This document shows, piece after piece, positions 8,218-60,246 of a DNA stretch of 64,000 bases. The stretch is taken from contig NZ_SNUS01000001.1 of the NCBI RefSeq assembly GCF_012027635.1, positions 1,736,001 to 1,800,000 of the forward strand, written 5' to 3'. The first letter of the stretch is position 1; every line of letters starts with the position of its first letter. Under the pieces are notes generated by a model that saw only the letters and a program-made list of their open reading frames with translations, did not search any database and had not been told where the DNA came from. The translations under genes were made by a program, and so were the position numbers. The DNA is from Thermococcus sp. 21S9 (GTDB lineage Archaea > Methanobacteriota_B > Thermococci > Thermococcales > Thermococcaceae).

Positions 8218-9174
8218 ATGGAGAGGGAGAAACTCATCAAAACCGTTGAGGCGATACTCAGGAGCGCGGGCTACAAAACGGCCCGCCTCGAGTTTAGGGG
8301 TTCCTGCTTTGACATAGTAGCGAGCCGGTTAGTGGTTCTTCTCTTCCTCAAGGTCGTCGTGAACATAGACACCGTTACCGAGGAGCAGGCAGAGGATTTG
8401 AAGAGGCTCGCGAAGTTCTTCAACGCCTCCCCGCTTATAGTGGGCCTCCGCTCAAAGAACGCGGAGCTTGAGGAGGGAGTTGTTTACGAGCGCTTCGGAA
8501 TCTACGCTTTGAGACCGGAAACGCTCTACGACGTCCTCACAAACAACGAGCTACCCGCCATCTTCGCGGAGCGCGGTGGGCTCTACGTCCGGATAAACGG
8601 CGAACTCCTTAGGGAGCTTCGCGAGAGGCACGGTTACTCGGTCAACGAGCTGGCACAGCTCCTCGGGGTTTCGAGGAAGACCCTCCTCAACTACGAGCGC
8701 GGTGAGCAGGCCGTTTCCCTTGAGGTGGCGATTAGGCTTGAGGAACTCTTCGACGAGGCTTTGGCAGAGCCGATTGACGTTCTGAACGCGAGGGTCGAGG
8801 CGAAGCTCGACGTTAAGCCCGAAAGCCCCCTCGAAAAGGAGGTCTTCGAAAGGCTGAAGCGTCTTGGCCTCGGTCTTGTGAAGGTTAAGAAGGCCCCGTT
8901 CAACGCGGTTTCAAAGGGCGACGAGTTCAGAATCCTGACGGGGATAGACGAGAGGAAGACCCGCTCGACGGTGAAGAGGGCCGAGATGGTGGCCGAGGTT
9001 GGCCGGATAATCAACTCCGACGGCGTGTTCATCCTTGAGAAGACCAAGACCGAGGTCGTCAAGGAGGTCCCCATAATCCCGAAGGAGAGCCTCAGGGAAG
9101 TTAAGGACGCCGACGAGCTCATAGAGATGATTGAGGAGCTCAAAAAGGAGATAAAGGCGAAGCTCTTCAGCTGA
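8218..9174 (+). CDS. HTH-type transcriptional regulator (archaeal XRE family)
   Basis: A 318-aa protein of the archaeal family usually listed as putative HTH-type transcriptional regulatory protein. An alpha/beta N-terminal domain (1-120) precedes an XRE/Cro helix-turn-helix at about 124-176 (ELAQLLGVSRKTLLNYERG). The C-terminal domain of about 130 residues is conserved in the family and has no known function. The start at 8218 lies about 25 bp after ACTTTATTAAG, suggesting a leaderless transcript; an in-frame extension upstream runs antisense through the acetyltransferase gene and is not believed. It overlaps the convergent HD gene by 8 bp. Confidence 0.85.
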   Translation: MEREKLIKTVEAILRSAGYKTARLEFRGSCFDIVASRLVVLLFLKVVVNIDTVTEEQAEDLKRLAKFFNASPLIVGLRSKNAELEEGVVYERFGIYALRPETLYDVLTNNELPAIFAERGGLYVRINGELLRELRERHGYSVNELAQLLGVSRKTLLNYERGEQAVSLEVAIRLEELFDEALAEPIDVLNARVEAKLDVKPESPLEKEVFERLKRLGLGLVKVKKAPFNAVSKGDEFRILTGIDERKTRSTVKRAEMVAEVGRIINSDGVFILEKTKTEVVKEVPIIPKESLREVKDADELIEMIEELKKEIKAKLFS

Positions 9175-12945: not shown

Positions 12946-14026
12946 CGTGATGCCCATCGTCAGCGGGCTTCTCGTCATGATAGCTGACCTCACGGCCTTT
13001 GCCCTGATAATGCGGGTGTACCTCAAGCGCAGGCGCAGGTCTGCACTCTTTTTTGCCGTTGCCTGGCTCGCGGATTTCCTCATGGTGGCGTTCTCCGCCT
13101 CAAAGAACCCCGTTCTCAAGACGATAGCCGAGCTATCACTTACGATTTTCGCCATGTTCGTGTTCGTAGGGTCTATACGGCTCCTTGAAGAGGAATCAAT
13201 CCAGCTCTCACACTCGACCCTCAAGCGGATGGGCATAATGGCCCCGGTGTTCTATGGGTACGTCGTTCTCGTCTATCGCTTCACTGGAAACGCAGACTGG
13301 GCCCTAACTGCGGGAGTTTCCCTGGGAGTGAGTGGTGCCTTTGTCTTCGCGAGTGGTGTTCTGTTGAAGCCCATTGAGGCCATTTACAAGAAACCCGCAA
13401 AGATTCTCTACCTCAGCGTCATCCTATTCGGACTCCACTTAATCCCCGCGGCATTGTTCGGCCTCTACGAGTGGTACCTTCCCATAGGATTTACCCTCTC
13501 AACTGCCCTAACGGTTATGATGGCATACTCCATGTACCGTCTGACCTCAACAAGGGAATTTCTTGAGGGAAGGGCCGATGTTAAGGTTCCGGAGATACAC
13601 AGTGGGACGATTATTCTTCAGCCCAATGAGTTCGAGAGTCTGCTTCCAAAGCTTGAAAATGCTCCTGTACTGGCGTTTCTCAGGGATTTAAAGCACTCCA
13701 GGGAAGGTTGGAGAACGTATTTCGTAACTGCGGTTCCGTTTAGGAAAGAACATATCTCGGGAACCCTTAACCCCACAGAACTCGCGAAGATGACGGAGAT
13801 AACGTTCCAGTACCTTGAGGAAGCTTCAAGAATGGGGATTCCTGGTGTCGTCGTTCTCGATTGCGTTGAGTACCTCAGCATGTACAATTCGTGGGAATCG
13901 CTCATGAAGTTTCTCTCCAAGCTAAGGGACCTGGTTATGGTAAAAGGAGGCACGTTAATCATTGTGATAGACAGAAACAGCGTTGAAGAACGTCTTTTCA
14001 ACCAGCTCAGAAAACTCCTTGAGTGA
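12932..14026 (+). CDS. integral membrane protein with C-terminal DUF835 domain
   Basis: A 364-aa protein. About seven hydrophobic segments fill residues 5-215, and a cytoplasmic alpha/beta DUF835 domain follows (about 230-360, with FVTAVPFRKEH, GVVVLDCVEYLSMYN and LIIVIDRNS). DUF835 is an archaeal domain, common in Thermococcales and often attached to membrane or sensor modules; its biochemical role is unknown. ATG 12932 follows GAGGAGGG and overlaps the preceding gene. An in-frame extension upstream runs within that gene and is not credited. The operon with an adenylate-forming relative suggests envelope or signalling work, but that is inference. Confidence 0.72.
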   Translation: MGLNDVMPIVSGLLVMIADLTAFALIMRVYLKRRRRSALFFAVAWLADFLMVAFSASKNPVLKTIAELSLTIFAMFVFVGSIRLLEEESIQLSHSTLKRMGIMAPVFYGYVVLVYRFTGNADWALTAGVSLGVSGAFVFASGVLLKPIEAIYKKPAKILYLSVILFGLHLIPAALFGLYEWYLPIGFTLSTALTVMMAYSMYRLTSTREFLEGRADVKVPEIHSGTIILQPNEFESLLPKLENAPVLAFLRDLKHSREGWRTYFVTAVPFRKEHISGTLNPTELAKMTEITFQYLEEASRMGIPGVVVLDCVEYLSMYNSWESLMKFLSKLRDLVMVKGGTLIIVIDRNSVEERLFNQLRKLLE

Positions 14027-14028
14027 GG

Positions 14029-14038
14029 GTTTATAAAC
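14029..14038 (+). promoter_or_regulatory. TATA box of the H/ACA RNA
   Basis: GTTTATAAAC, a perfect palindromic TATA element just after the DUF835 stop codon, about 25 bp ahead of the first base-paired residue of the guide RNA. Confidence 0.7.
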
Positions 14039-14053
14039 CGCGTCCCCTACCTA

Positions 14054-14272
14054 ACAACGCCCCCGCGCGAGGACCCCGGGGAGAATGAACCGGGGGGCGA
14101 TGCGGGGGCTACAGCCCGGCCTCAGCGAGGTCCCCGCGGGAGGGCCTTCCGCGTCCCGGAGCACGATGACCGCGGGAAACCCAGGCCGGGCACAGTTCTC
14201 GCCCGCCTGGGTTAACCCGCCTGAGTGTGGCGTTGCCTTCGATGAGGGCGGGCGTTACGGGCGGGCGACATA
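14054..14272 (+). ncRNA. triple H/ACA pseudouridylation guide RNA
   Basis: Three consecutive H/ACA units can be folded by hand. Unit 1: lower stem GCCCCCGC (14059-14066) with GCGGGGGC (14102-14109), upper stem CCCCGG/CCGGGG, ACA at 14111. Unit 2: GCCCGGCCT (14114-14122) with AGGCCGGGC (14183-14191), upper stem CCCGCGG/CCGCGGG, ACA at 14192. Unit 3: CGCCCGCC (14200-14207) with GGCGGGCG (14260-14267), upper stem CCCGCC/GGCGGG, ACA at 14268. Each has an internal pocket (for example 14208-14215 plus 14253-14259 in unit 3) and GA/UGA elements suited to L7Ae-bound kink-turns or kink-loops. Such RNAs direct Cbf5-Nop10-Gar1-L7Ae to rRNA uridines. T-rich CCCTTTCTT follows. Confidence 0.85.
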
Positions 14273-14382
14273 CCCTTTCTTGACCTCCCGTCAATAGAAC
14301 ATTCCCAATGGTTACATCTGCTCCTCGTGTCAACCGAATAACAGAAAGAGTTATTAACCTGAACTGCATAATGAATAATGCC

Positions 14383-32363: not shown

Positions 32364-32382
32364 ACTCCCGGGTTCTCAAAAC

Positions 32383-32390
32383 CTTTAAAA
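32383..32390 (+). promoter_or_regulatory. TATA box for fluoride riboswitch 1 and the Ehr-like operon
   Basis: CTTTAAAA within CTCAAAACCTTTAAAAACCC, about 35-42 bp ahead of the first aptamer base. The transcript would start near 32413. Confidence 0.55.
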
Positions 32391-32424
32391 ACCCGCTCCC
32401 ATAAAACCGCCGGGTTAAATTTCC

Positions 32425-32475
32425 GGGCGATGGCGTCCGCCCTTAACCGCCCCGTGGGGGCTGATGACGCCTGTT
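32425..32475 (+). promoter_or_regulatory. fluoride riboswitch (crcB motif) 1
   Basis: The aptamer is complete. GGGCG (32425-32429) pairs with CGCCC (32438-32442). GATGGCGTC carries GGCGTC (32432-32437), which forms the pseudoknot with GACGCC (32466-32471). GCCCC (32449-32453) pairs with GGGGC ahead of the invariant CTGATGA. This is the fluoride-aptamer consensus order as in the Thermotoga riboswitch. Downstream, CTCC can pair with the GGAG of GGGAGGTG, masking the ribosome site, while CTGT/ACAG offers a competing hairpin, so translational control is likely. It precedes the complex-I-like operon that starts at 32501. Confidence 0.92.
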
Positions 32476-32500
32476 CTCTCCACAGTGGGAGGTGACGCCT

Positions 32501-33460
32501 TTGAACCCGGAAGGTAGGATAGTCATCGGTTTAGTCCAGGTTATAGTTGTGCTCCTGCTCTCACCCCTCATGGTCGGAATCCTCAAGAAGATAGAGGCGC
32601 GCATCGAGTCGAGGAAGGGAATAAGCATCTTCCAGCCCTACTACGACCTCGCGAAGTTCTTCAGGAAGGAGACGCTGATTCCAGAGGGAGTCGGCCCGTT
32701 CTTCGTTATCGCGCCGTTCATAGCCTTCGGTGCAATGCTGACGTTGCCCTGGATGCTCCCGATAGTCGGCAACTTCCCGAGCTGGTTCGCCCCGACGGTG
32801 GACTTCTTCGGCGGGACCTTCATATTCGGTTTAGCGGCGATGGCCTCGATTTTAGCCACCGAGAGGACCGGAAGCTACTACACCGGAATTGGGGCGACCC
32901 GTTCGGTTAACTTCGGGGCCTTCGCGGAGCCGGTTCTCATAATGGTCTTCTTTGGAGTGGCCATACTAACGGGAACCAACAACCCCTTCCTGATGAACCA
33001 CAGGATAACTGCTGAGGGCTGGTACCTCAGTCCGACGCACATTCTCATCACGGCCGCGTTCTTCATGCTCCTGCTCTTCGATACGGGAAAGCTCCCAATC
33101 GAGTCCCACGGGAGCAACGAGCTCGGAATGCTCGACCAGGCGAAGGGCCTTGAGTACACCGGCCCGCTCTACGCCCTCAACACCTGGGCGGGCTACATGA
33201 AGTCCTTCATCCTGATGGCGGTTTTCCTCAACGTCTTCGCAGTCCCCTGGGGCCTCGCGACGAGCGCAAGTTTGGTTGAGATTGCCAAGGGAATCGCGAC
33301 GCTCTTCGTCAAGATGCTCGGCCTCATCTTGGCCTTCGTCGTCGTTGAGGAGACCCTGGCGAAGATAAGGCTCTTCCGCATCATCGACTACCTGTCAGCC
33401 AGCTTCCTCCTGGCGATAATGGGCGTTATCAGCTTCCTCCTCGGGGGTGGTGCGCCGTGA
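32501..33460 (+). CDS. NuoH/HyfC-like membrane subunit
   Basis: A 319-aa membrane protein of the NuoH/HycD/HyfC family with about eight helices. It forms the membrane foot that links the peripheral arm to the antiporter-like subunits. Seen motifs include RKGISIFQPYYDLAKFF, the ATERTGSYYTGIGATR loop and LLLFDTGKLPIESHGSNELG with conserved acidic residues. TTG 32501 is chosen since GGAGGTG (32488-32494) is well spaced; GTG 32492 lies inside that site. It is first in the six-gene operon under fluoride riboswitch 1. Confidence 0.87.
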   Translation: MNPEGRIVIGLVQVIVVLLLSPLMVGILKKIEARIESRKGISIFQPYYDLAKFFRKETLIPEGVGPFFVIAPFIAFGAMLTLPWMLPIVGNFPSWFAPTVDFFGGTFIFGLAAMASILATERTGSYYTGIGATRSVNFGAFAEPVLIMVFFGVAILTGTNNPFLMNHRITAEGWYLSPTHILITAAFFMLLLFDTGKLPIESHGSNELGMLDQAKGLEYTGPLYALNTWAGYMKSFILMAVFLNVFAVPWGLATSASLVEIAKGIATLFVKMLGLILAFVVVEETLAKIRLFRIIDYLSASFLLAIMGVISFLLGGGAP

Positions 33461-34074
33461 TTAACGAAATCCTCAACCTGCTCGGCTCGGTGGTCCTCCT
33501 CACGGCCTTCTTCATGCTCACCGAGTCCTACATGCACTCGCTGATTGACGCGGTTGCGTTCCAGTCCGTCCTAATCGGCCTGATTATCGGAATAGTCGGC
33601 TGGGAAAAGCGGATTCCCGAACTCATAATCCTCGGCGGAATCACGATAGCGTTCAGGGCGCTCCTGATACCCTGGCTCCTCCAGAGGGACGTCAGGAAGG
33701 AGAGAATCTGGCGCGGAAGGGAGATTAAGACGACGCACCACGCGATAGTTCTCGGCCTCATCGTGGCGGTCCTGGCTTACTTCCTCTACATCCCGGTCTA
33801 CAAAGCCACAAACGACTGGAGCGGGGTCATAGCCTTCGTCCTGCTCTTCCTCAGCATGCTCATCATAGCCTCGAGGAGGAACGCCCTGGCCCAGATAGTC
33901 GGCTACCTCAGCGAGGAGAACGCGCTCCTCTACCTTGCGGTGATGCTATCGCCGATGCCCATGGTCCTTGAGTTCGGAATACTGCTCGACATGATAGCCT
34001 TCGTCCTGCTCGCGGTCGTCTTGGGTGCCGAGAAGCGCTACGGGCCATTGGAAGTCGAGGAGCTGGTGGGGTGA
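33457..34074 (+). CDS. HyfE-like membrane subunit (NuoK-related)
   Basis: A 205-aa hydrophobic protein with about six helices. Its C-terminal half resembles NuoK/MrpC as in HyfE (IVGYLSEENALLYLAVMLSPMPMVLEFG, with a buried glutamate). Its GTG overlaps the preceding stop (GTGA). It joins the other membrane subunits in the proposed ion-translocating module. Confidence 0.82.
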   Translation: MINEILNLLGSVVLLTAFFMLTESYMHSLIDAVAFQSVLIGLIIGIVGWEKRIPELIILGGITIAFRALLIPWLLQRDVRKERIWRGREIKTTHHAIVLGLIVAVLAYFLYIPVYKATNDWSGVIAFVLLFLSMLIIASRRNALAQIVGYLSEENALLYLAVMLSPMPMVLEFGILLDMIAFVLLAVVLGAEKRYGPLEVEELVG

Positions 34075-34078
34075 TAGT

Positions 34079-35437
34079 ATGGAGGCAGTGGTTTACCTGC
34101 TCGCGATACCGCTCATAGCGACGCTCCTTCCGCTCCTCTCGGAGAGGCTCGGAAGGGCAATCGTCCCCGGGCTGGCGTTCATAACGGCGTCAATAGCAAC
34201 CGACATGCTTCTCAGGGGCTACACCGTCTCGAGCTACTACTTCTACGCCGACTGGTACTCAATGGTTCTGGCAACGACGATAGCCTGGATTTACTTCTTC
34301 GCCTCCCTGGCATCGCTCTACTACGTCGAGAGGGTTGAGAGGCCATTCTACCCGCTCAGGCTCTACTGGAGCTTCCTCTCGCTCTTCGCGCTCTCGATGA
34401 TTTTCACCGCCGTCGTCTCGAACCTCGGCTGGATGTGGATTGGCCTCGAGGCGACGACCGTCGTCAGCGCGATACTCATAATCACAGACGGCAAGAAGCG
34501 GAACGTCGAGGGGGCATGGCGCTACATGATTATCGCCTCCGCGGGCCTTGGAATAGCCTTCCTCTCCGTTGTCATAACCTACAGCTTCGCGGGAACCCTC
34601 GACGTCAGGCACCTCGTTCTATCCGAGAAAGCCGGCGCCGTTGTTGGACTGCTTGCCATAGTCGGCTTCGGAACAAAGGTCGGTCTCTTCCCGATGCACG
34701 GCTGGCTTCCCGATGCTCACGGAAGCGCTCCGTCGCCGGTCAGCGCTATGCTCTCGGGAACGCTCCTCCCAACGGCTCTGCTCGTTTACTACCGCCTCTT
34801 CAAGGCATCAACGGGTCTCGGGAAGGAGGCCGTCTACATAGCCCTAACCGTCGGAATCCTGACGGTCCTGGTGGCATCAATCCTGATGGCCTCGCAGAGG
34901 TTCGTCAAGAGGCTACTGGCTTACTCGAGCATGGACATGATGGGCGTAGCTACCATAGGCATCGCGCTGAGTTACTACAGGCCGAGCCTGCTCAAGCTCG
35001 TATTCGTCCTCATCGCGGTTCACGCCTTCGCCAAGGGCGCCCTCTTCATCTCAGCCGGAAGCGCGGTGAGCAGGTACGGCCACGAGATTGGGGAAATCAA
35101 CGGCCTGCTGAAGGACAGCCCGGCACTCGGCTACTCTTTCGGATTATCTGCTCTGGCGGTGACCGGTGCACCGCCTTTCGGAACCTTCCTTGCGGAGCTG
35201 TCGATACTCGGGGTTGCCCTCTCGATAAACCGCTGGTGGGCCCTCCTCATCGGAACGGGACTGCTCCTCTCGTTCCTGGCCCTCAACTGGCACTCGGCCA
35301 AGATGCTCTTCGGAGAGGGAAAGGGAGCGGAGTTCCAGCGCGGTGAGGAGCTGATACCCCTGACGATGACACTCGTAGCTCTTGGGGTAAGCCTCTACGC
35401 AGTTTACCTTGCACTCACCGGGGGTCTGGTAATATGA
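34079..35437 (+). CDS. antiporter-like membrane subunit, HyfF/MrpD/NuoN type
   Basis: A 452-aa membrane protein with 13-14 helices of the antiporter-like family in complex I, Mrp antiporters and group 4 hydrogenases. The proton-channel residues are visible: Glu in WIGLEATTVVSAIL, Lys in GFGTKVGLFPMHGWLPDAH, and the PSPVSAMLSGTLLP helix break. The start is ATG 34079, four bases after the previous stop. It would pump H+ or Na+ when the peripheral arm is active. Confidence 0.88.
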   Translation: MEAVVYLLAIPLIATLLPLLSERLGRAIVPGLAFITASIATDMLLRGYTVSSYYFYADWYSMVLATTIAWIYFFASLASLYYVERVERPFYPLRLYWSFLSLFALSMIFTAVVSNLGWMWIGLEATTVVSAILIITDGKKRNVEGAWRYMIIASAGLGIAFLSVVITYSFAGTLDVRHLVLSEKAGAVVGLLAIVGFGTKVGLFPMHGWLPDAHGSAPSPVSAMLSGTLLPTALLVYYRLFKASTGLGKEAVYIALTVGILTVLVASILMASQRFVKRLLAYSSMDMMGVATIGIALSYYRPSLLKLVFVLIAVHAFAKGALFISAGSAVSRYGHEIGEINGLLKDSPALGYSFGLSALAVTGAPPFGTFLAELSILGVALSINRWWALLIGTGLLLSFLALNWHSAKMLFGEGKGAEFQRGEELIPLTMTLVALGVSLYAVYLALTGGLVI

Positions 35438-36639
35438 TGGCTCTCTCGGCCGTTTTCAGGAGGAACGGAAACTACCTAACGGTCTGGCTCGACTACGACA
35501 CGGGCGAGGCCCTCATTAGGGAAGAGGAGAGACTGCCGGACAGGAAGATTGCGCCCGCCCTGATTGGTGAGACCACGCCTTACATCAGAATCCCGCCGGG
35601 AAGCAACGCGGTCCCTTTGACCTTCGGTCCGGCCGCCGGTGGCTTGGGGCAGGCCGGGGCCTTCGAGATACTCACCTACGGCGAGAGGATAGTCTCGATA
35701 AGGCCCGTCTACGGCTACAAGAAACGCGGAATCGAGGAAAGGCTGATAAACCGCCCGCTGGAGGAGACCATTGCAGTTCTTGAGAGGGCCGTAGGGAACT
35801 TCGCCTTAGCTTACACCTACGCCTTCCTGAGGGCGGTTGAGGCCAACCCCGACGAGGACGTCTGGGAGGTCAGGAAGGGCCTCCTTGAGATTGAGAGGCT
35901 CTACAACCACTTCAACGTCATCCACAAGCTCGCTGGAGATGCATCTCAGAAGGTCGCGACGATGCACTTCCACTGGCTCGAGGAGGAAACGCTCAGGATT
36001 CTTAACAGGCTGACCGGCCATCGCTACGGCTTCGGCGCGAACGTTCCTGGAGGGGTTAGAATCCTCGACGGAAGGGCCGTTGAGAGGCTTGGGAAGCTCA
36101 AGGAGGAGTTCCGCGAGCTGAGGGAGGAGTTGCTTGAGAGCAAGATATTCATCGACCGTCTCCACAACACCTGCCGGCTGAGCAAAGAGGACGTAATCGA
36201 GCTCGACGCCGTTGGAATAGCATCGAGGGGTTCCGGGGTCCCGAGGGACGTTCGGGCCTTTGACAGGTTCTACTCCTACAAACCGGTGACGTGCGAGGAC
36301 GGGGACGCCCTCGCGAGGCTCATGGTTCGCATGGAGGAGATAGAGCGCTCCTTTGAGATTATCGAGGGAATCGACTTCAGGGCTTTAAAGTCAGACCCAG
36401 AGGTTAAAGAGGGTCTCAACCTCGGGCTGGCAGAGGCGCCTCATGGTGACGTTCTTACGCTCGTGGAGCTGAGGGACGGCAGGGTTTCATGGATTGGCCT
36501 CAGGGGAGCGTCGAGGATAAACTACGTGGCCTTCTGCAGGGGCATAACCGGGAACATCTTCACGGACTTCCCCTTCGGACTTCACAGCTTCGGCCTGAAC
36601 TTCGCGGATGCAGACCTCTGGCAGGGAGGTGAGGAGTGA
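35434..36639 (+). CDS. [NiFe]-hydrogenase-like large subunit without Ni-Fe ligands (Ehr/NuoCD-like)
   Basis: A 401-aa protein fusing a NuoC/HycE-N-like region (1-75) to a NuoD/HyfG-like large subunit. At the first CxxC position (ERICGICS in hydrogenases) it reads ERAVGNFA (117-124). At the C-terminal DPCxxC position it reads TDFPFGLHSFGLNF (377-390). All four Ni-Fe cysteines are absent; the only cysteines are 247, 287 and 368. It therefore cannot be a hydrogenase and resembles the energy-converting-hydrogenase-related (Ehr) proteins. Its ATG overlaps the preceding stop. Confidence 0.87.
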   Translation: MMALSAVFRRNGNYLTVWLDYDTGEALIREEERLPDRKIAPALIGETTPYIRIPPGSNAVPLTFGPAAGGLGQAGAFEILTYGERIVSIRPVYGYKKRGIEERLINRPLEETIAVLERAVGNFALAYTYAFLRAVEANPDEDVWEVRKGLLEIERLYNHFNVIHKLAGDASQKVATMHFHWLEEETLRILNRLTGHRYGFGANVPGGVRILDGRAVERLGKLKEEFRELREELLESKIFIDRLHNTCRLSKEDVIELDAVGIASRGSGVPRDVRAFDRFYSYKPVTCEDGDALARLMVRMEEIERSFEIIEGIDFRALKSDPEVKEGLNLGLAEAPHGDVLTLVELRDGRVSWIGLRGASRINYVAFCRGITGNIFTDFPFGLHSFGLNFADADLWQGGEE

Positions 36640-37244
36640 TGTGGATTATCAGGGGACTCAGGAAGGGCGTTCTGACGAGCGAGTATCCAAAGAGGGTAAG
36701 CGAGGAAGAGCTTCTCTTCAGCTTCCCTCTCGAGGCCCCGGCGGAGTGCCCGTTCGGGGCCGTTGAAGATGGGAGATTCGACTACAGGAAGTGCATCAAC
36801 TGCCGTCTCTGCAACGTCCCCTTCGGCCAGAAAACAGGGCTGAGTGAGGTTAAAAATCCTCTCCCCTTCAGGAAGTCACTCCACGTCTTCTTCCTTGACG
36901 TCGGAACCTGCCACGCCTGCAACAGGGAGGTTGCACTCCTCCACAGCCCGAACTACGACGTCCACAGGCTCAAGATATTCTTCACGCCGACGCCGAAGCA
37001 CGCGGACGTTCTCCTCGTCGCCGGCTGTCCGACCGATGGAATGATTCCGGTCCTGAAGGAGGCCTACGAGCTGATGCCCGAACCCAAGCGGGTCTTAGTT
37101 TTGGGCTCCTGCGCCAACGGCGCGCTGTGCGATAGGAAGGTGGAGGACTTCGTTCCGGTTGACGGCTACGTTCCGGGCTGTCCGCCAAGTCCCGTTCAGA
37201 TTATAGAGGGCCTCCTCAAGGTCGCCGGGAGGGATGTCGAATGA
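36639..37244 (+). CDS. fused ferredoxin-like and hydrogenase small-subunit-like protein (HyfH/HyfI-like)
   Basis: A 201-aa protein with two parts. Residues 30-65 hold one 4Fe-4S site (C37 plus C52-x2-C55-x2-C58), a cut-down version of the two-cluster HycF/NuoI subunit. Residues 85-195 are NuoB/HyfI-like with the proximal-cluster cysteines C91-x2-C94, C158 and C181 (VPGCPPSP), plus C130. GTG 36636 is one codon upstream; ATG 36639 fits GGAGGTGAGG better. The fusion would carry electrons straight to the ligand-less large subunit encoded before it. Confidence 0.82.
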   Translation: MWIIRGLRKGVLTSEYPKRVSEEELLFSFPLEAPAECPFGAVEDGRFDYRKCINCRLCNVPFGQKTGLSEVKNPLPFRKSLHVFFLDVGTCHACNREVALLHSPNYDVHRLKIFFTPTPKHADVLLVAGCPTDGMIPVLKEAYELMPEPKRVLVLGSCANGALCDRKVEDFVPVDGYVPGCPPSPVQIIEGLLKVAGRDVE

Positions 37245-39061
37245 TTGACCCGTTCTACGCGATAACAATAGGCTTCATCGTTGCCTCCCTGCTCGCGGTG
37301 ATTTCGAAAAAGGCCAGCTACGCGCTCTCGGCCCTTCTCTCGGCCGGCCTGCTGGTCCTCGCCCTCGTCCGGCCGGAGGGAATAGACGACGTTTCCCGCT
37401 ACTTCCTCGTGATTTCGGGGATAGTATGGCTCGGGGCTTCGCTGTTCAGCCTGAGCTACGACGACCACTATCCGAGGCTGTTAGCCGGTTCGTTCACGAT
37501 GAGCATTGCCGGAATGCTCGTGATACTCCTTGCAAAGGGGGCCGTCGGCTTCCTCGTCGGCTGGGAGGTCATGACTATAGCGAGCTACTTCGGAATGACC
37601 GTGAGGGAGAACTCACGGAGGGGTGCCTACAAGTTCCTCGCCTTCGGCGAGCTGAGCGCGCTCTTAATCCTGGCCGGTTTCGGCCTGCTCTCCGTTGAGA
37701 CGGGCTCCACGGCATTTTCGGCCTGGAAAGGTTCCGGGTTCTGGAGCCTGGCGTTCTTCCTGGCAGGTCTCGGCTTCGCCGTAAAGATGGACGCGGTTCC
37801 ATTCCATACCTGGATTGTGGACGCCTATCCGAGGGTTCCCGGAAACGTGGGTGCCCTCCTCAGCGCAGTTGTGACCCTTATGGGTGTCTACGGGTTTGCG
37901 AGGTTGTTACTCATCGCGGTTCCTGCCAACTGGGTTGGAGCGTTCTTCCTCCTGCTCGGCGGTCTAACCGCCATACTCGGCGCGGCTTATTCAGCTGGAA
38001 CTGAGCACGTCAAGAGACTGCCCGGTTACAGCACCGTTGAGAACGACGGCGTTTTACTCGCGCTCTTCGGCGGAACGGTTCTCGCCCTCAACGCCGGCAA
38101 CAAGACACTCGCTTCCTTTGCGTTCCTGGCGTTGCTCTTCTACGCCTTCGCCCACAGCGTTGCGAAGGGTCTCCTCTTTCTCATCGCAAGCAGGCTTGAG
38201 AACGGAACCGGGCGCTTTCCCGAGGTTCGGCCAAGGAGGCTCACCACCGTCGGCGTCGTCGCGGGCTACGTCTCCGCCCTCAGCCTGGCCGGTGTCGCTC
38301 CGTTTCCGGGCTTCCTCGGTGAGTGGATGGGCATAGAAACGCTCCTTCAGAGCTTCAAAATCCCGGATGTAAAGCTCAAGGTTTTGATGGTTCTGGTTGG
38401 CTCACTGGTTGCCCTAACCGCGGGTGTCGCCGGCGTTGCGATGAGCAAGATGATAACCCACGGAGTTCAGCGCGCGGGAGGAAGGAGGGAGCTCTCCGCT
38501 GAGGACATCGCCTACACCTTCATGGGTGCGGTGCTGGTGATGGTGGGGATTCTCCCCCTGGCAGTCTTCAGGCTGGCCGATGGTGCTTTGAGCTCGCTCA
38601 CAGGAATGGGCGCCACCGCCTTCGTCACCGGTGCGCTCGGGGTCAAGGATGGCTTCCTAATCGTCGCCAAGGACTTCGGCGGAATCTCGCCAACGTACCT
38701 CGCAGGGCTTGTAACAGTCTTCGGGGTCACTGTCTACGTTCTGGTTCGCATCACAGTCCTCCGGAGGGTCCGGCGCGTTAGGGCCTGGAGCGGTGGACTG
38801 AGGAACCCGGAGTACCCACCGATAGCCCACTCGGCGATACTCCTCATAACAGAGGGCTGGCTCTACGGAACGAGGGAAGAGAGCGGAAGGCTTTACTGGA
38901 AGGAAAGGCTCAACATCGCATACCAGAAACTTGCGGAGGCATATCTCAGCGCATCCGAGTGGTTCAGACACGAGCTCATGAGGGGTTCCGACAGCGTTTA
39001 CGTTGCCTACATTCTTCTCGCACTGATTGTGGGCCTGATATACCTGCTCCACTCCCTTTGA
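37241..39061 (+). CDS. antiporter-like membrane subunit, HyfB/NuoL type
   Basis: A 606-aa membrane protein with about 15-16 helices, the larger antiporter-like subunit of the complex. Conserved channel residues are Glu in VGWEVMTIASYFGM, Lys in GFAVKMDAVPFHTWIVDAYP and the PGNVGALLSAVVTLMGVYG helix. A C-terminal hydrophilic segment (WSGGLRNPEYPPIAHSA) matches HyfB. The ATG overlaps the previous stop. It is the last gene of the fluoride-switch-1 operon. Confidence 0.88.
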   Translation: MIDPFYAITIGFIVASLLAVISKKASYALSALLSAGLLVLALVRPEGIDDVSRYFLVISGIVWLGASLFSLSYDDHYPRLLAGSFTMSIAGMLVILLAKGAVGFLVGWEVMTIASYFGMTVRENSRRGAYKFLAFGELSALLILAGFGLLSVETGSTAFSAWKGSGFWSLAFFLAGLGFAVKMDAVPFHTWIVDAYPRVPGNVGALLSAVVTLMGVYGFARLLLIAVPANWVGAFFLLLGGLTAILGAAYSAGTEHVKRLPGYSTVENDGVLLALFGGTVLALNAGNKTLASFAFLALLFYAFAHSVAKGLLFLIASRLENGTGRFPEVRPRRLTTVGVVAGYVSALSLAGVAPFPGFLGEWMGIETLLQSFKIPDVKLKVLMVLVGSLVALTAGVAGVAMSKMITHGVQRAGGRRELSAEDIAYTFMGAVLVMVGILPLAVFRLADGALSSLTGMGATAFVTGALGVKDGFLIVAKDFGGISPTYLAGLVTVFGVTVYVLVRITVLRRVRRVRAWSGGLRNPEYPPIAHSAILLITEGWLYGTREESGRLYWKERLNIAYQKLAEAYLSASEWFRHELMRGSDSVYVAYILLALIVGLIYLLHSL

Positions 39062-56959: not shown

Positions 56960-57058
56960 AGTCTACCCTCGCTCAGACTTAGGGATGGCTGGATTTATAA
57001 GCGTTCTTTAGAGCGTTGAACCATGATGCTTTTAAGGCACCACCGCGAGTGAATACAT

Positions 57059-57121
57059 GGGCGATGGCGTCCGCCCTGGGCTTCGAGCCCGAACCGCCCG
57101 AAGGGGCTGATGACGCCTGTT
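57059..57121 (+). promoter_or_regulatory. fluoride riboswitch (crcB motif) 2
   Basis: GGGCG (57059-57063) pairs with CGCCC (57072-57076). GATGGCGTC places GGCGTC (57066-57071) to form the pseudoknot with GACGCC (57112-57117). GCCC (57096-57099) pairs with GGGC before CTGATGA. Unlike switch 1, a hairpin GGGCT-TCG-AGCCC (57078-57090) is inserted in the linker between the first and second helices. The downstream TGTTCTCC-ACG-GGGAGG segment can hide the ribosome site. TATA-like CTTTTAAGG (57029-57037) lies upstream. It leads the operon that ends with crcB. Confidence 0.94.
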
Positions 57122-57140
57122 CTCCACGGGAGGTGAGAGA

Positions 57141-58007
57141 ATGGGCTCGAAGCTTTACGAAATCGGACGTTACGTTGACGTTGATGCCGTCCTACGATAC
57201 GTTAAGGAGAGGCGACACGAGGATGGCGGTTACTGCTTCGTTAGCGTTCTCGACGATACCAACGTGAACGATACCTACTACGCGATTAAAATCTACAACC
57301 TCCTCGGCATCGAGTTCCCGGAACCGGAGAAAACCATTGAGTTCCTGAGCAACGCCATCCAGCCCCAGACTGCAGTCGTGGCAATAGCGATGGCGCTCGA
57401 AGGTCTCGCCCTGCTCGGAGCCAAGGACGTCGCAAGGGAGAAGAGCGACATAGTTTTCACCAAGTACAACCCCGCGGAAGGCAAGTTCGCGGTCGGACTC
57501 GGTGGGAGCGAGGAGTTCGGAACGGCGACACCGCTCGAAGCCACCTACTGGGTCACCAAGGCCTTCAACCAGATTGGCTTAAAGTTCGATTCCACCGAAA
57601 AGGACGCGATTAGGGCCTTCGTGATGAAGTTCCGCAACGGTAACGGCTACGGCGTCAAGCAACCGACTACGACCATGACCTACCAGGCGCTCTTCACGCT
57701 CTACACCCTTGGCTACCGCCCGCCCAAGAGCCCCCACTTCAGGAACTGTGAGCTCTGCGGTGACTGGGGTGGGTTCACAGAGGTGCCTTACAGCCTTCCG
57801 CCGTACCTTGAGCCGACGTTCTACGCAACGAGGGGCCTTGAGCTTCAGAACGAGACACCCACCTGTCCGAGGAGGCACGTCTGGTTCATCCGCCAGCTCC
57901 AGAACCCCAACGGTGGCTTCAGGAGGAGCCTTGAACTCGGCATCTCGAACTTCCAGAACACCTACCGCGCGCTGGCGGTCGTTGATTCGATGATGCGTTA
58001 CCTTTAG
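57141..58007 (+). CDS. prenyltransferase/terpene-cyclase-like alpha-alpha toroid protein
   Basis: A 288-aa protein built of alpha-alpha repeats of the prenyltransferase beta-subunit/squalene-cyclase superfamily. Repeat starts are seen at GGYCFVSVLDDTNVNDTYYAIKIYNLLG, GTATPLEATYWVTKAFNQIG, NGYGVKQPTTTMTYQALFTLYTLGY, GGFTEVP and NPNGGFRRSLELGISNFQNTYRALAVVD (segments of residues about 25-285). CELCG and CPRRH could bind zinc. No cyclase DxDD motif is visible. It has GGGAGGTGA ahead and is the first gene after fluoride riboswitch 2. Function in fluoride response unknown. Confidence 0.72.
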   Translation: MGSKLYEIGRYVDVDAVLRYVKERRHEDGGYCFVSVLDDTNVNDTYYAIKIYNLLGIEFPEPEKTIEFLSNAIQPQTAVVAIAMALEGLALLGAKDVAREKSDIVFTKYNPAEGKFAVGLGGSEEFGTATPLEATYWVTKAFNQIGLKFDSTEKDAIRAFVMKFRNGNGYGVKQPTTTMTYQALFTLYTLGYRPPKSPHFRNCELCGDWGGFTEVPYSLPPYLEPTFYATRGLELQNETPTCPRRHVWFIRQLQNPNGGFRRSLELGISNFQNTYRALAVVDSMMRYL

Positions 58008-58015
58008 TGGAGCCT

Positions 58016-58687
58016 ATGGACGTTATAGAGGCCGAATTCAGGAGGGCAATGGAGGAACCGGGTTGTCCGGTCTGCAGGTTAGTCGAGAAGTTCGAGGATG
58101 AAGAGATTGAGACCATACTCTACGAGCACCCCAATGACCCGGCCGTCAGGAAGGCCTTTCGAGGGAGCGGGGGCCTCTGCAGGAGGCACGCCTGGAAGGT
58201 CCTCCGGCTGGCCCTCTCCAATCCCCTTCTTGGCCCCCACGGGGTTTCCGTCATTTACGAGGACGTTCTTGAGAGCTACCTGCGCGGGGAGGATGAAACC
58301 GAGGAGTGTCTCCTCTGCAGGCTCACGGCAGAGAAAGAGCGAATCCTAATCGAATCCCTCGCTGACAGGCTCCCGAACCTCATCGAAGCCTACGAGAACT
58401 CGCCCGCAATCCTCTGCAGGAGACATTACGAGGAAGTTCTAAGGAGGATTACCGACGAAAGCCTAAGGAGAAAGTTCTCAGAGGTTCAGAGGAGAAAGCT
58501 CGAAGGGCTGAGGGAGAGGCTTGAAGGACTCATAGAGAGCTTTGACTACCGGGCCAAAAGAAAACCAACGGAGGCAGAGAGGAGGGCGATACTTGAAGCA
58601 GTGGAATTCCTTGCCGGTAGAGAAGTCGGCCCAGAACGCGGGCGGAAGGAGAGGAGGGAGAAACGTTGGCCGTTGAGATTGAGGTGA
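58016..58687 (+). CDS. cysteine-rich duplicated CxxC/CRRH protein (DUF6062-like)
   Basis: A 223-aa protein with two repeat units. Each has a CxxC (CPVC at 17-20; CLLC at about 98-101) followed some 40 residues later by GLCRRHAW or ILCRRHYEE. This pattern suggests two metal sites. The C-terminal third is a charged helix (YRAKRKPTEAERRAI) with a basic tail. GTG 58007 overlaps the previous stop; ATG 58016 is taken. I am unsure of the family name. It overlaps the next gene by 22 bp. Confidence 0.65.
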   Translation: MDVIEAEFRRAMEEPGCPVCRLVEKFEDEEIETILYEHPNDPAVRKAFRGSGGLCRRHAWKVLRLALSNPLLGPHGVSVIYEDVLESYLRGEDETEECLLCRLTAEKERILIESLADRLPNLIEAYENSPAILCRRHYEEVLRRITDESLRRKFSEVQRRKLEGLRERLEGLIESFDYRAKRKPTEAERRAILEAVEFLAGREVGPERGRKERREKRWPLRLR

Positions 58688-58971
58688 GTGGTGAAGAACT
58701 TGATAGAATCAGGCGAAACCGGAAGGAGATTGAAGAGAGGCTGAGGGATGTAGAGGGCCTTGAAAGAACACTGAAAGCCCTAAAGCTCAGGCTCCTCCTC
58801 GAGAGGAGGGAGAGACTGCTCAGGAAGCTTGAAGAGATGGAAACCAACTACCGGGAGCTCGTCGAGTTTGAGAAGAAGGCGAAAGAGGACCGGAGTTACA
58901 TGCTTGAGCTGAGAAACGAGCTGAGCAGGGAAAACGCGGAGCTCAGAAAGCGCCTGGGGGATATGCGATGA
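58666..58971 (+). CDS. coiled-coil protein of the fluoride operon
   Basis: A 101-aa, almost wholly helical protein (RRNRKEIEERLRDVEGLERTL, RKLEEMETNYRELVEFEKKAKE, ELRNELSRENAELRKRL). It starts at TTG 58666 behind GAGGGAGAAACG and overlaps the genes on both sides. It resembles the short coiled-coil gene at 31964 in kind and placement, though generic coiled coils give weak evidence of homology. Possibly a partner of the 58968 product. Confidence 0.6.
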   Translation: MAVEIEVSGEELDRIRRNRKEIEERLRDVEGLERTLKALKLRLLLERRERLLRKLEEMETNYRELVEFEKKAKEDRSYMLELRNELSRENAELRKRLGDMR

Positions 58972-59405
58972 AGGTCACGGTATGGGCCAAGGGCAGGTGG
59001 AGGAAAGTTCATTTCAACGTCCCCGACGAGCTCTGGAAGAGAATCGAGGAGACCTGCAGAAGGAACGGTTTCCGAACGGAGGAGGCCCTAAGGATAATAC
59101 TCCTTGACGGCTATCTCGATGAAGAGGTTGACAAGGAAGAACTCGCGAGACTGGAGGAGGAGATAAACAGGCTCGAAGAAAGGCTTTACGAGCTTGAGGG
59201 ACACTGGTCCCCCCTGAAGTTCAGGACGTACTACTCCGCCCTGGACAACCAGAACCTCGCCATAACTCTTTCCGGGCTGATAGCTGAGAACAAAAGGCTA
59301 AGGAAGATGCTGGGCCTCAAGGAGAGGGACTTCTCAAAGGCAGAAGGGCTGATCCACTACTACATGTCCTACGCGTTCGGAGATGAGAAAACCGAAAAGT
59401 TTTAA
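58968..59405 (+). CDS. small protein with ribbon-helix-helix-like N-terminus and coiled coil
   Basis: A 145-aa protein. The N-terminus (VTVWAKGRWRKVHFNVPDELWKRIEETCRRNGFRTEEALRIILLDGYL, residues 3-50) looks like a CopG/ribbon-helix-helix strand plus two helices. A heptad region (EELARLEEEINRLEERLYELEG) follows. The C-terminal helix NQNL-AITLSGLIAEN matches the 32121 protein. It could be a DNA-binding regulator or an assembly scaffold. ATGA overlaps the previous stop. A TATA-like GTTTTAAAGG is at its end. Confidence 0.6.
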   Translation: MKVTVWAKGRWRKVHFNVPDELWKRIEETCRRNGFRTEEALRIILLDGYLDEEVDKEELARLEEEINRLEERLYELEGHWSPLKFRTYYSALDNQNLAITLSGLIAENKRLRKMLGLKERDFSKAEGLIHYYMSYAFGDEKTEKF

Positions 59406-59489
59406 AGGAACCTAACTGCAAGGGGGCTGAAACGTTGCCAGTTCTTTCAAGTAACCTTCAGAAAAACACAATGAAACAGGGGTGGTGGG

Positions 59490-60246
<757 letters not shown>

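Follow-up and report, generated by a model that had tools for sequence, protein, structure and literature searches.

A window of 64,000 nucleotides from Thermococcus sp. 21S9 carries a fluoride riboswitch at the head of a six-gene operon that encodes a membrane complex of the Ehr (energy-converting hydrogenase-related) type, kin to group 4 hydrogenases and complex I. It is fair to say that one deep lineage of such operons, spread over bacteria and archaea, carries the switch almost throughout. The job of this lineage seems to be fluoride defense rather than hydrogen production, and we consider it reasonably probable, though well short of certain, that it is a distinct Ehr lineage with a dedicated role in fluoride stress, acting as a switch-controlled ion translocator that offsets the acid load and depolarization caused by hydrogen fluoride (HF).

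The riboswitch and the complex behind it

The RF01734 covariance model matched positions 32417–32480 of the window on the forward strand (cmscan 56.5 bits, E 5.4e-13), spanning all 64 model positions with a score above the gathering score of 34, which identifies the element as a fluoride riboswitch. The initial annotation, made from the letters alone, had placed this aptamer at 32425–32475. A putative archaeal promoter, recognized from sequence only, lies upstream on the same strand (32378–32391) and comprises a BRE-like AAAACC and a TATA box, TTTAAAAA. The TATA-like box (32384–32391) is ~40 nt 5′ of the aptamer, and TTTAAAA occupies the same place in 11 of the 12 orthologs shown. Because this box is upstream of the aptamer and the aptamer match ends only ~20 nt before gene 1, an intervening promoter, the arrangement that the initial annotation had regarded as fatal to its proposal, is unlikely. 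The aptamer core is invariant across the linked operons compared.

In the ligand-bound fold of the fluoride riboswitch family, the loop GGCGTC pairs with the 3′ strand GACGCC. Here we take this pseudoknot to join 32432–32437 (GGCGTC, forward strand, the 5′ pseudoknot strand by alignment to RF01734) to 32466–32471 (GACGCC). A second GACGCC (32494–32499) stands directly after the Shine–Dalgarno GGGAGGTG, the two together covering 32487–32499 of the forward strand; it copies the aptamer’s 3′ pseudoknot strand, and its placement is conserved in every Thermococcus leader listed. The minimum free energy fold of the leader pairs this putative anti-aptamer with the aptamer loop 32432–32437 (GGCGUC), which makes it a reasonable guess, offered as a hypothesis, that the second GACGCC competes for GGCGTC and so would control translation. 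The pairing measures 9–10 bp in Archaeoglobi leaders (P 0.001 for the 10-bp version against shuffled leaders) and 6 bp in Thermococcus, where it is no better than in shuffled leaders (P 0.2–0.5).

All six genes lie on the strand of the aptamer and run to 39061, joined by 4-nt overlaps or a 4-nt gap. Gene 1 encodes a HyfC/NuoH-like membrane subunit (32501–33460; PF00146, E 2.7e-30; best PDB match formate hydrogenlyase (FHL) subunit 4, 7z0s_D) and probably starts at TTG 32501 rather than at the GTG 32492 of the open reading frame list, because that GTG falls within the Shine–Dalgarno. Then come the NuoK-like membrane subunit HyfE (33457–34074; NCBIfam NF008556, E 8.6e-13, under the curated cut-off), the first antiporter-like subunit HyfF (34079–35437; PF00361, E 4.2e-45; NF005042, hydrogenase 4 subunit F, E 3.4e-89) and HyfG, which resembles NuoD and the hydrogenase large subunit (35434–36639; PF00346, AlphaFold 2 model and ortholog alignment). 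A HyfH/I fusion of a half-ferredoxin and a NuoB-like small subunit follows (36636–37244; PF01058, E 1.6e-18, and ortholog alignment), and the second antiporter-like subunit, HyfB (37241–39061; NF005046, hydrogenase 4 subunit B, E 2.4e-130), is the final gene. The AlphaFold model of HyfG (predicted local distance difference test score 92.3) has FHL subunit 5, 7z0s_E, as its top fold match, with a template modeling score of 0.84 by query length.

Pfam and NCBIfam thus bear out the complex-I/hydrogenase-like ion-pump architecture that had been read from the open reading frames, with some correction of the subunit labels. NuoH-like, NuoK-like (HyfE), two antiporter-like and NuoB-like subunits stand. 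The protein labeled NuoCD-like has the NuoD-like part and, in place of NuoC, just a short N-terminal beta domain. The supposed NuoI/NuoB fusion keeps its NuoB part, with the hydrogenase-type CxxC, GxC and PGC ligands, but is not a full NuoI, as its half-ferredoxin (CP...CxxCxxC) has ligands for one [4Fe–4S] cluster and not two.

The suspicion that a hydrogenlyase does not fit this operon proved well founded. All four cysteines that ligate Ni–Fe are missing from HyfG, and neither RxCGxC nor DPCxxC occurs in any ortholog; the Thermococcales hydrogenase controls (L045–L061) carry both motifs. Formate hydrogenlyase and [NiFe] hydrogenase group 4 are ruled out as classes by this loss, and no formate dehydrogenase subunit is encoded among the six genes. 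The usual hydrogenlyase annotation is explained by HyfG and HyfC matching FHL subunits 5 and 4 best. Ehr complexes (Marreiros 2013, via PMC6349859) combine group 4 hydrogenase-like subunits with antiporter-like membrane subunits and lack Ni–Fe ligands. Since both subunit types are present here and the cysteines are absent, the locus encodes, by that definition and on its predicted proteins, an Ehr-type complex and not a hydrogenlyase. Three other classes were considered. An MBS-like sulfur reductase is ruled out by the cysteines, since none is conserved at L1/L2 and the CxxC motif keeps its spacing. Respiratory complex I does not fit, with CxxC rather than tandem CC in the NuoB-like subunit and no NuoEFG-like gene in the operon, nor does the Mrp antiporter class, since the operon has NuoD/NuoB-like subunits and lacks the other Mrp subunits.

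Linkage of the switch to one lineage

Relatives of HyfG were sought in one genome per species, giving 80 loci, and more were added from relatives of those genomes; Rfam and a custom model were used to detect switches in these loci. A tree of 143 HyfG homologs places 49 rows together on one side of a branch whose support is 99 in the Shimodaira–Hasegawa-like approximate likelihood ratio test, and an earlier, smaller tree gave the same branch a support of 100/100. The 49-row group is marked by a C-terminal TDF..SFG-type motif, where other relatives have PDFPLINKSF. A same-strand upstream fluoride switch was found in 37 of its 41 rows with intact upstream DNA and in 0 of the 86 untruncated rows from other Ehr/Hyf relatives (Fisher 7e-28, a value that ignores shared ancestry). 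The association of switch and operon first noticed in the window is therefore strengthened, being lineage-wide and monophyletic.

The switch typically lies 3.0–3.6 kb 5′ of HyfG, at the start of HyfC (4.3 kb in L099; ~5.2 kb in L269, L270 and L272). Among the switchless exceptions, L266 and L267 have weak, below-threshold switches at the operon start (20–21 bits), the operon of L102 is broken by a group II intron, and no switch, even a weak one, was seen in L265. The intron of L102 (RF00029, 2614–2703) splits HyfF, and a fluoride switch at gathering score lies further downstream (8571–8628). In L266 (3355–3650) and L267 (9631–9820), fluoride switches lie in pairs 5′ of the operon, one on each strand.

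By record titles, members come from Thermococci, Archaeoglobaceae, DHVE2/Thermoplasmatota, Bacteroidetes, Desulfurellaceae, Solirubrobacterales, Alicyclobacillus, Ktedonobacterales and several proteobacterial metagenome-assembled genomes (MAGs). A search of 289 genomes from the same class as genome G126 gave no further member at E 1e-100. Genes for CrcB and/or DUF190 proteins follow HyfB in four bacterial loci (L135, L141, L146 and L149). By its gene content L135 is a fluoride-resistance island: five fluoride switches stand in 20 kb (1–20049), along with HAD hydrolase, PAP2, CrcB and DUF190 genes. Two such operons per locus, tandem or facing, occur in L101, L115, L168 and L320/L321, and L101 and L168 each combine an intact copy with one whose Fe–S ligands are altered, as though specialized.

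Within Thermococcaceae, a second fluoride switch was detected in 15 of 94 genomes, and each of the 15 directly precedes HyfC of this operon; those of G045 and G059 score slightly below the gathering cut-off. The operon itself is present in 16 of the 94 genomes, the sixteenth copy (G064) being truncated at a contig end. Orthologous large subunits share 59 to 98% identity, and ileS adjoins the operon in most carriers. No fluoride switch was found near other Thermococcales group 4 operons in loci with 1.5 kb flanks, for which the whole-genome switch count in the 94 genomes is the better control. No conserved accessory gene was found 3′ of HyfB in archaea, where HyfB is flanked by unrelated genes (RIO kinase, DNA ligase, Usp, radical SAM).

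Proposed function and alternative explanations

A 2024 review (PMC11139923) describes Fluc as driven by membrane potential, HF entry as lowering pH and proton-motive force, and Na+/H+ antiporters as the second most common switch-linked class, with pH homeostasis tied to fluoride resistance. An ion translocator under a fluoride switch would counter both the pH drop and the loss of proton-motive force. We hypothesize that fluoride enters as HF, which would split into H+ and F− inside, and that F− leaves via Fluc, powered by the membrane potential, so that every cycle would import one proton and depolarize the cell. The switch would turn on a six-subunit ion translocator, composed of two antiporter-like subunits, HyfE, the NuoH-like connector and a hydrogenase-derived arm without Ni–Fe, that would move H+ and/or Na+ and so bring internal pH and potential back to normal. 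The Thermococcus arm retains two intact [4Fe–4S] sites, and for this reason ferredoxin oxidation may power the translocator; elsewhere in the lineage the redox part appears to be decaying. We infer fluoride induction, the ion species, its direction and the energy source from sequence.

Most lineage members, including that of the window, keep all proximal-cluster ligands and the [4Fe–4S] ferredoxin motif. The four proximal ligands have been lost in L099, L100, the second operon of L101 and L265–267, and L264 keeps one aligned cysteine; the second operon of L101 and L264–267 are actinobacterial, and the tree implies at least two loss events. PGN stands in place of PGC in three further rows, and L317, L318, L264, L099 and L100 lack the ferredoxin ligands as well. 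All seven cluster-less rows retain unchanged the charged residues of HyfF (E124, K200, K277, H315, K319, E373), HyfB (E109, K182, H305, K309, E361) and HyfC (E146, E210, K274), which are near-invariant across the lineage. Mean identity of HyfC is 6–16 points higher than that of HyfG in the lineage, compared with ~0 difference in other Ehr/Hyf relatives, and HyfC position 130 has a lineage-specific Tyr in place of an invariant Phe. The conservation of HyfC and the retention of ion-path residues despite Fe–S loss suggest that, in this lineage, the membrane part is under selection. Three partial cluster losses also occur in the control group of other Ehr/Hyf relatives, so the lineage is not alone in showing erosion. 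A second Ehr-type complex whose small subunit has DCDN for CCCC, and without a fluoride switch, was observed in a Scalindua/anammox MAG and a related MAG (L114, 16643–19044; L162, 16944–19360).

Several points weigh against the proposed fluoride-stress translocator. The Fe–S loss in some members argues against a single redox-driven mechanism for the lineage, conservation of ion-path charges is common to ordinary Ehr/Hyf relatives and alone is no pointer to fluoride, and the operon is an accessory trait in Thermococcaceae. The fluoride response, ion movement and resistance role are predicted. What the initial annotation had advanced, a fluoride-responsive ion pump as a resistance strategy, remains plausible and now has a lineage-wide pattern behind it; a purely redox-driven pump is weakened as the general mechanism because of the redox erosion seen in several relatives.

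The same erosion favors the strongest competing explanation, a serious contender although we judge it the less probable: a secondary transporter that works without redox power, as the Mrp Na+/H+ antiporter does, with the hydrogenase-derived arm vestigial or structural, Thermococcus included. The repeated loss of proximal cysteines (L099/L100; second operon of L101/L264–267), the missing ferredoxin ligands and the ion path kept by all seven cluster-less members are as it would predict, and Na+/H+ antiporters are a switch-linked class already known (PMC11139923). However, the ligands and [4Fe–4S] motif kept by most members, the window’s among them, suggest selection for electron transfer, and the operon has no MrpB-, MrpE-, MrpF- or MrpG-like subunits. 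More tentatively, the lineage may be a branch of the complex I superfamily turned redox-free secondary transporter of ions (or fluoride) for fluoride defense, its catalytic arm kept as a scaffold or gate.

Thermococcus depends on ferredoxin-coupled respiration. This dependence and the intact clusters in Thermococcus would suit a metabolic bypass, in which the complex, with ion movement as a secondary role, would serve as an electron sink and reoxidize ferredoxin while enolase and other metal enzymes are blocked by fluoride. Such a bypass is nonetheless unlikely, as there is no apparent acceptor site and cluster-less relatives behind the same switch cannot reoxidize ferredoxin.

Export of F− or HF by the complex itself, fluoride passing through the NuoH-like subunit, would account for the excess conservation of HyfC and its Tyr130. 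CrcB was also not detected in 17 of the 42 genomes with the complex, including the near-complete, single-contig G930, and G976 has just a broken, sub-threshold match. These genomes do not show that the complex replaces an exporter, as many of those other than G930 and G976 are MAGs and the count was made without a CLC-F search. Direct export is quite improbable: the complex does not resemble known F− pathways, coupling could explain the conservation of HyfC, and CrcB is present in the window’s own genome. An ordinary formate hydrogenlyase or group 4 hydrogenase, as in the published label, is scarcely credible: the closest solved structures are E. coli FHL subunits, but every ortholog lacks all four Ni-ligand cysteines and the operon has no formate dehydrogenase gene. 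Chance proximity, or an aptamer that is a mere relic, can practically be dismissed given a linkage that recurs in 37 untruncated operons over many phyla with an invariant aptamer core.

The crcB locus and comparison with known systems

The window holds a second fluoride riboswitch (57051–57126, forward strand; RF01734, cmscan 50.0 bits), which heads the crcB operon. This operon (57051–60246) encodes a prenyltransferase-toroid protein, a DUF6062 protein, a 145-aa protein, the CrcB/Fluc fluoride channel (59490–59861, forward strand; PF02537, E 3.1e-30) and a DUF190 protein (59866–60246, forward strand; PF02641) of the family that follows the lineage’s complexes in bacteria. Its non-exporter genes recur in most Thermococcales loci inspected, and we know of no role for them in fluoride resistance. 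Elsewhere in the window, positions 14006–14275 match HgcG (Pab40), an H/ACA-type RNA typical of Thermococcales (212 bits).

‘Formate hydrogen lyase’ genes were listed behind the crcB motif by Weinberg 2010 and again in PMC11139923, so the literature link named in the initial annotation is real. That label probably hides the present lineage. Outside subscription papers, no literature was found that identifies the switch-linked genes as a separate non-hydrogenase lineage, and nothing more specific was found on archaeal fluoride switches controlling hydrogenase-like genes. What appears new is the loss of proximal Fe–S ligands in at least two lineages, the invariance of charged ion-path residues and the unusual conservation of the NuoH-like subunit. 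The analysis gives a probable identity to long-listed, unexplained genes behind fluoride switches and proposes a likely function for one branch of the Ehr complexes, most of which are uncharacterized. Natural complexes whose redox part evolution has removed, with the ion path intact, would make the coupling question of complex I directly testable. If the proposal is true, the lineage would represent a third answer to fluoride toxicity, beside Fluc channels and CLC-F exchangers.

The published switch-linked genes share riboswitch and annotation class with this operon, but in the parts of those sources available they appear as a gene label only, whereas here they probably resolve into a monophyletic non-hydrogenase lineage. 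With Ehr complexes the operon shares group 4 hydrogenase-like and antiporter-like membrane subunits and the lack of Ni–Fe ligands; it differs in its separate branch, its order C-E-F-G-H/I-B with HyfB last, its fluoride switch, its TDF..SFG ending in place of PDFPLINKSF and the Fe–S loss in some members. E. coli formate hydrogenlyase/hydrogenase-4 (HycBCDEFG, Hyf) provides the best sequence and fold match of HyfC, the best fold match of HyfG and the subunit types of HyfE, HyfF and HyfB, yet the complex here has no Ni–Fe site, no formate dehydrogenase and a ferredoxin part reduced to one cluster. Mrp cation/proton antiporters have homologous antiporter subunits, and a non-redox mode like theirs is possible in cluster-less members, but the NuoH-like connector and NuoD/NuoB-like subunits are kept here and other Mrp subunits are absent. 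The Pyrococcus sulfane sulfur reductase MBS (Mbx) is likewise hydrogenase-derived, with the Ni–Fe site lost and ferredoxin input likely. MBS retains two of the four cysteines (C85, C385) and has an altered proximal cluster and a full Mrp-like module (PMC7684303), whereas in the complex described here all four cysteines are gone and the CxxC spacing, shortened in MBS, is hydrogenase-like.

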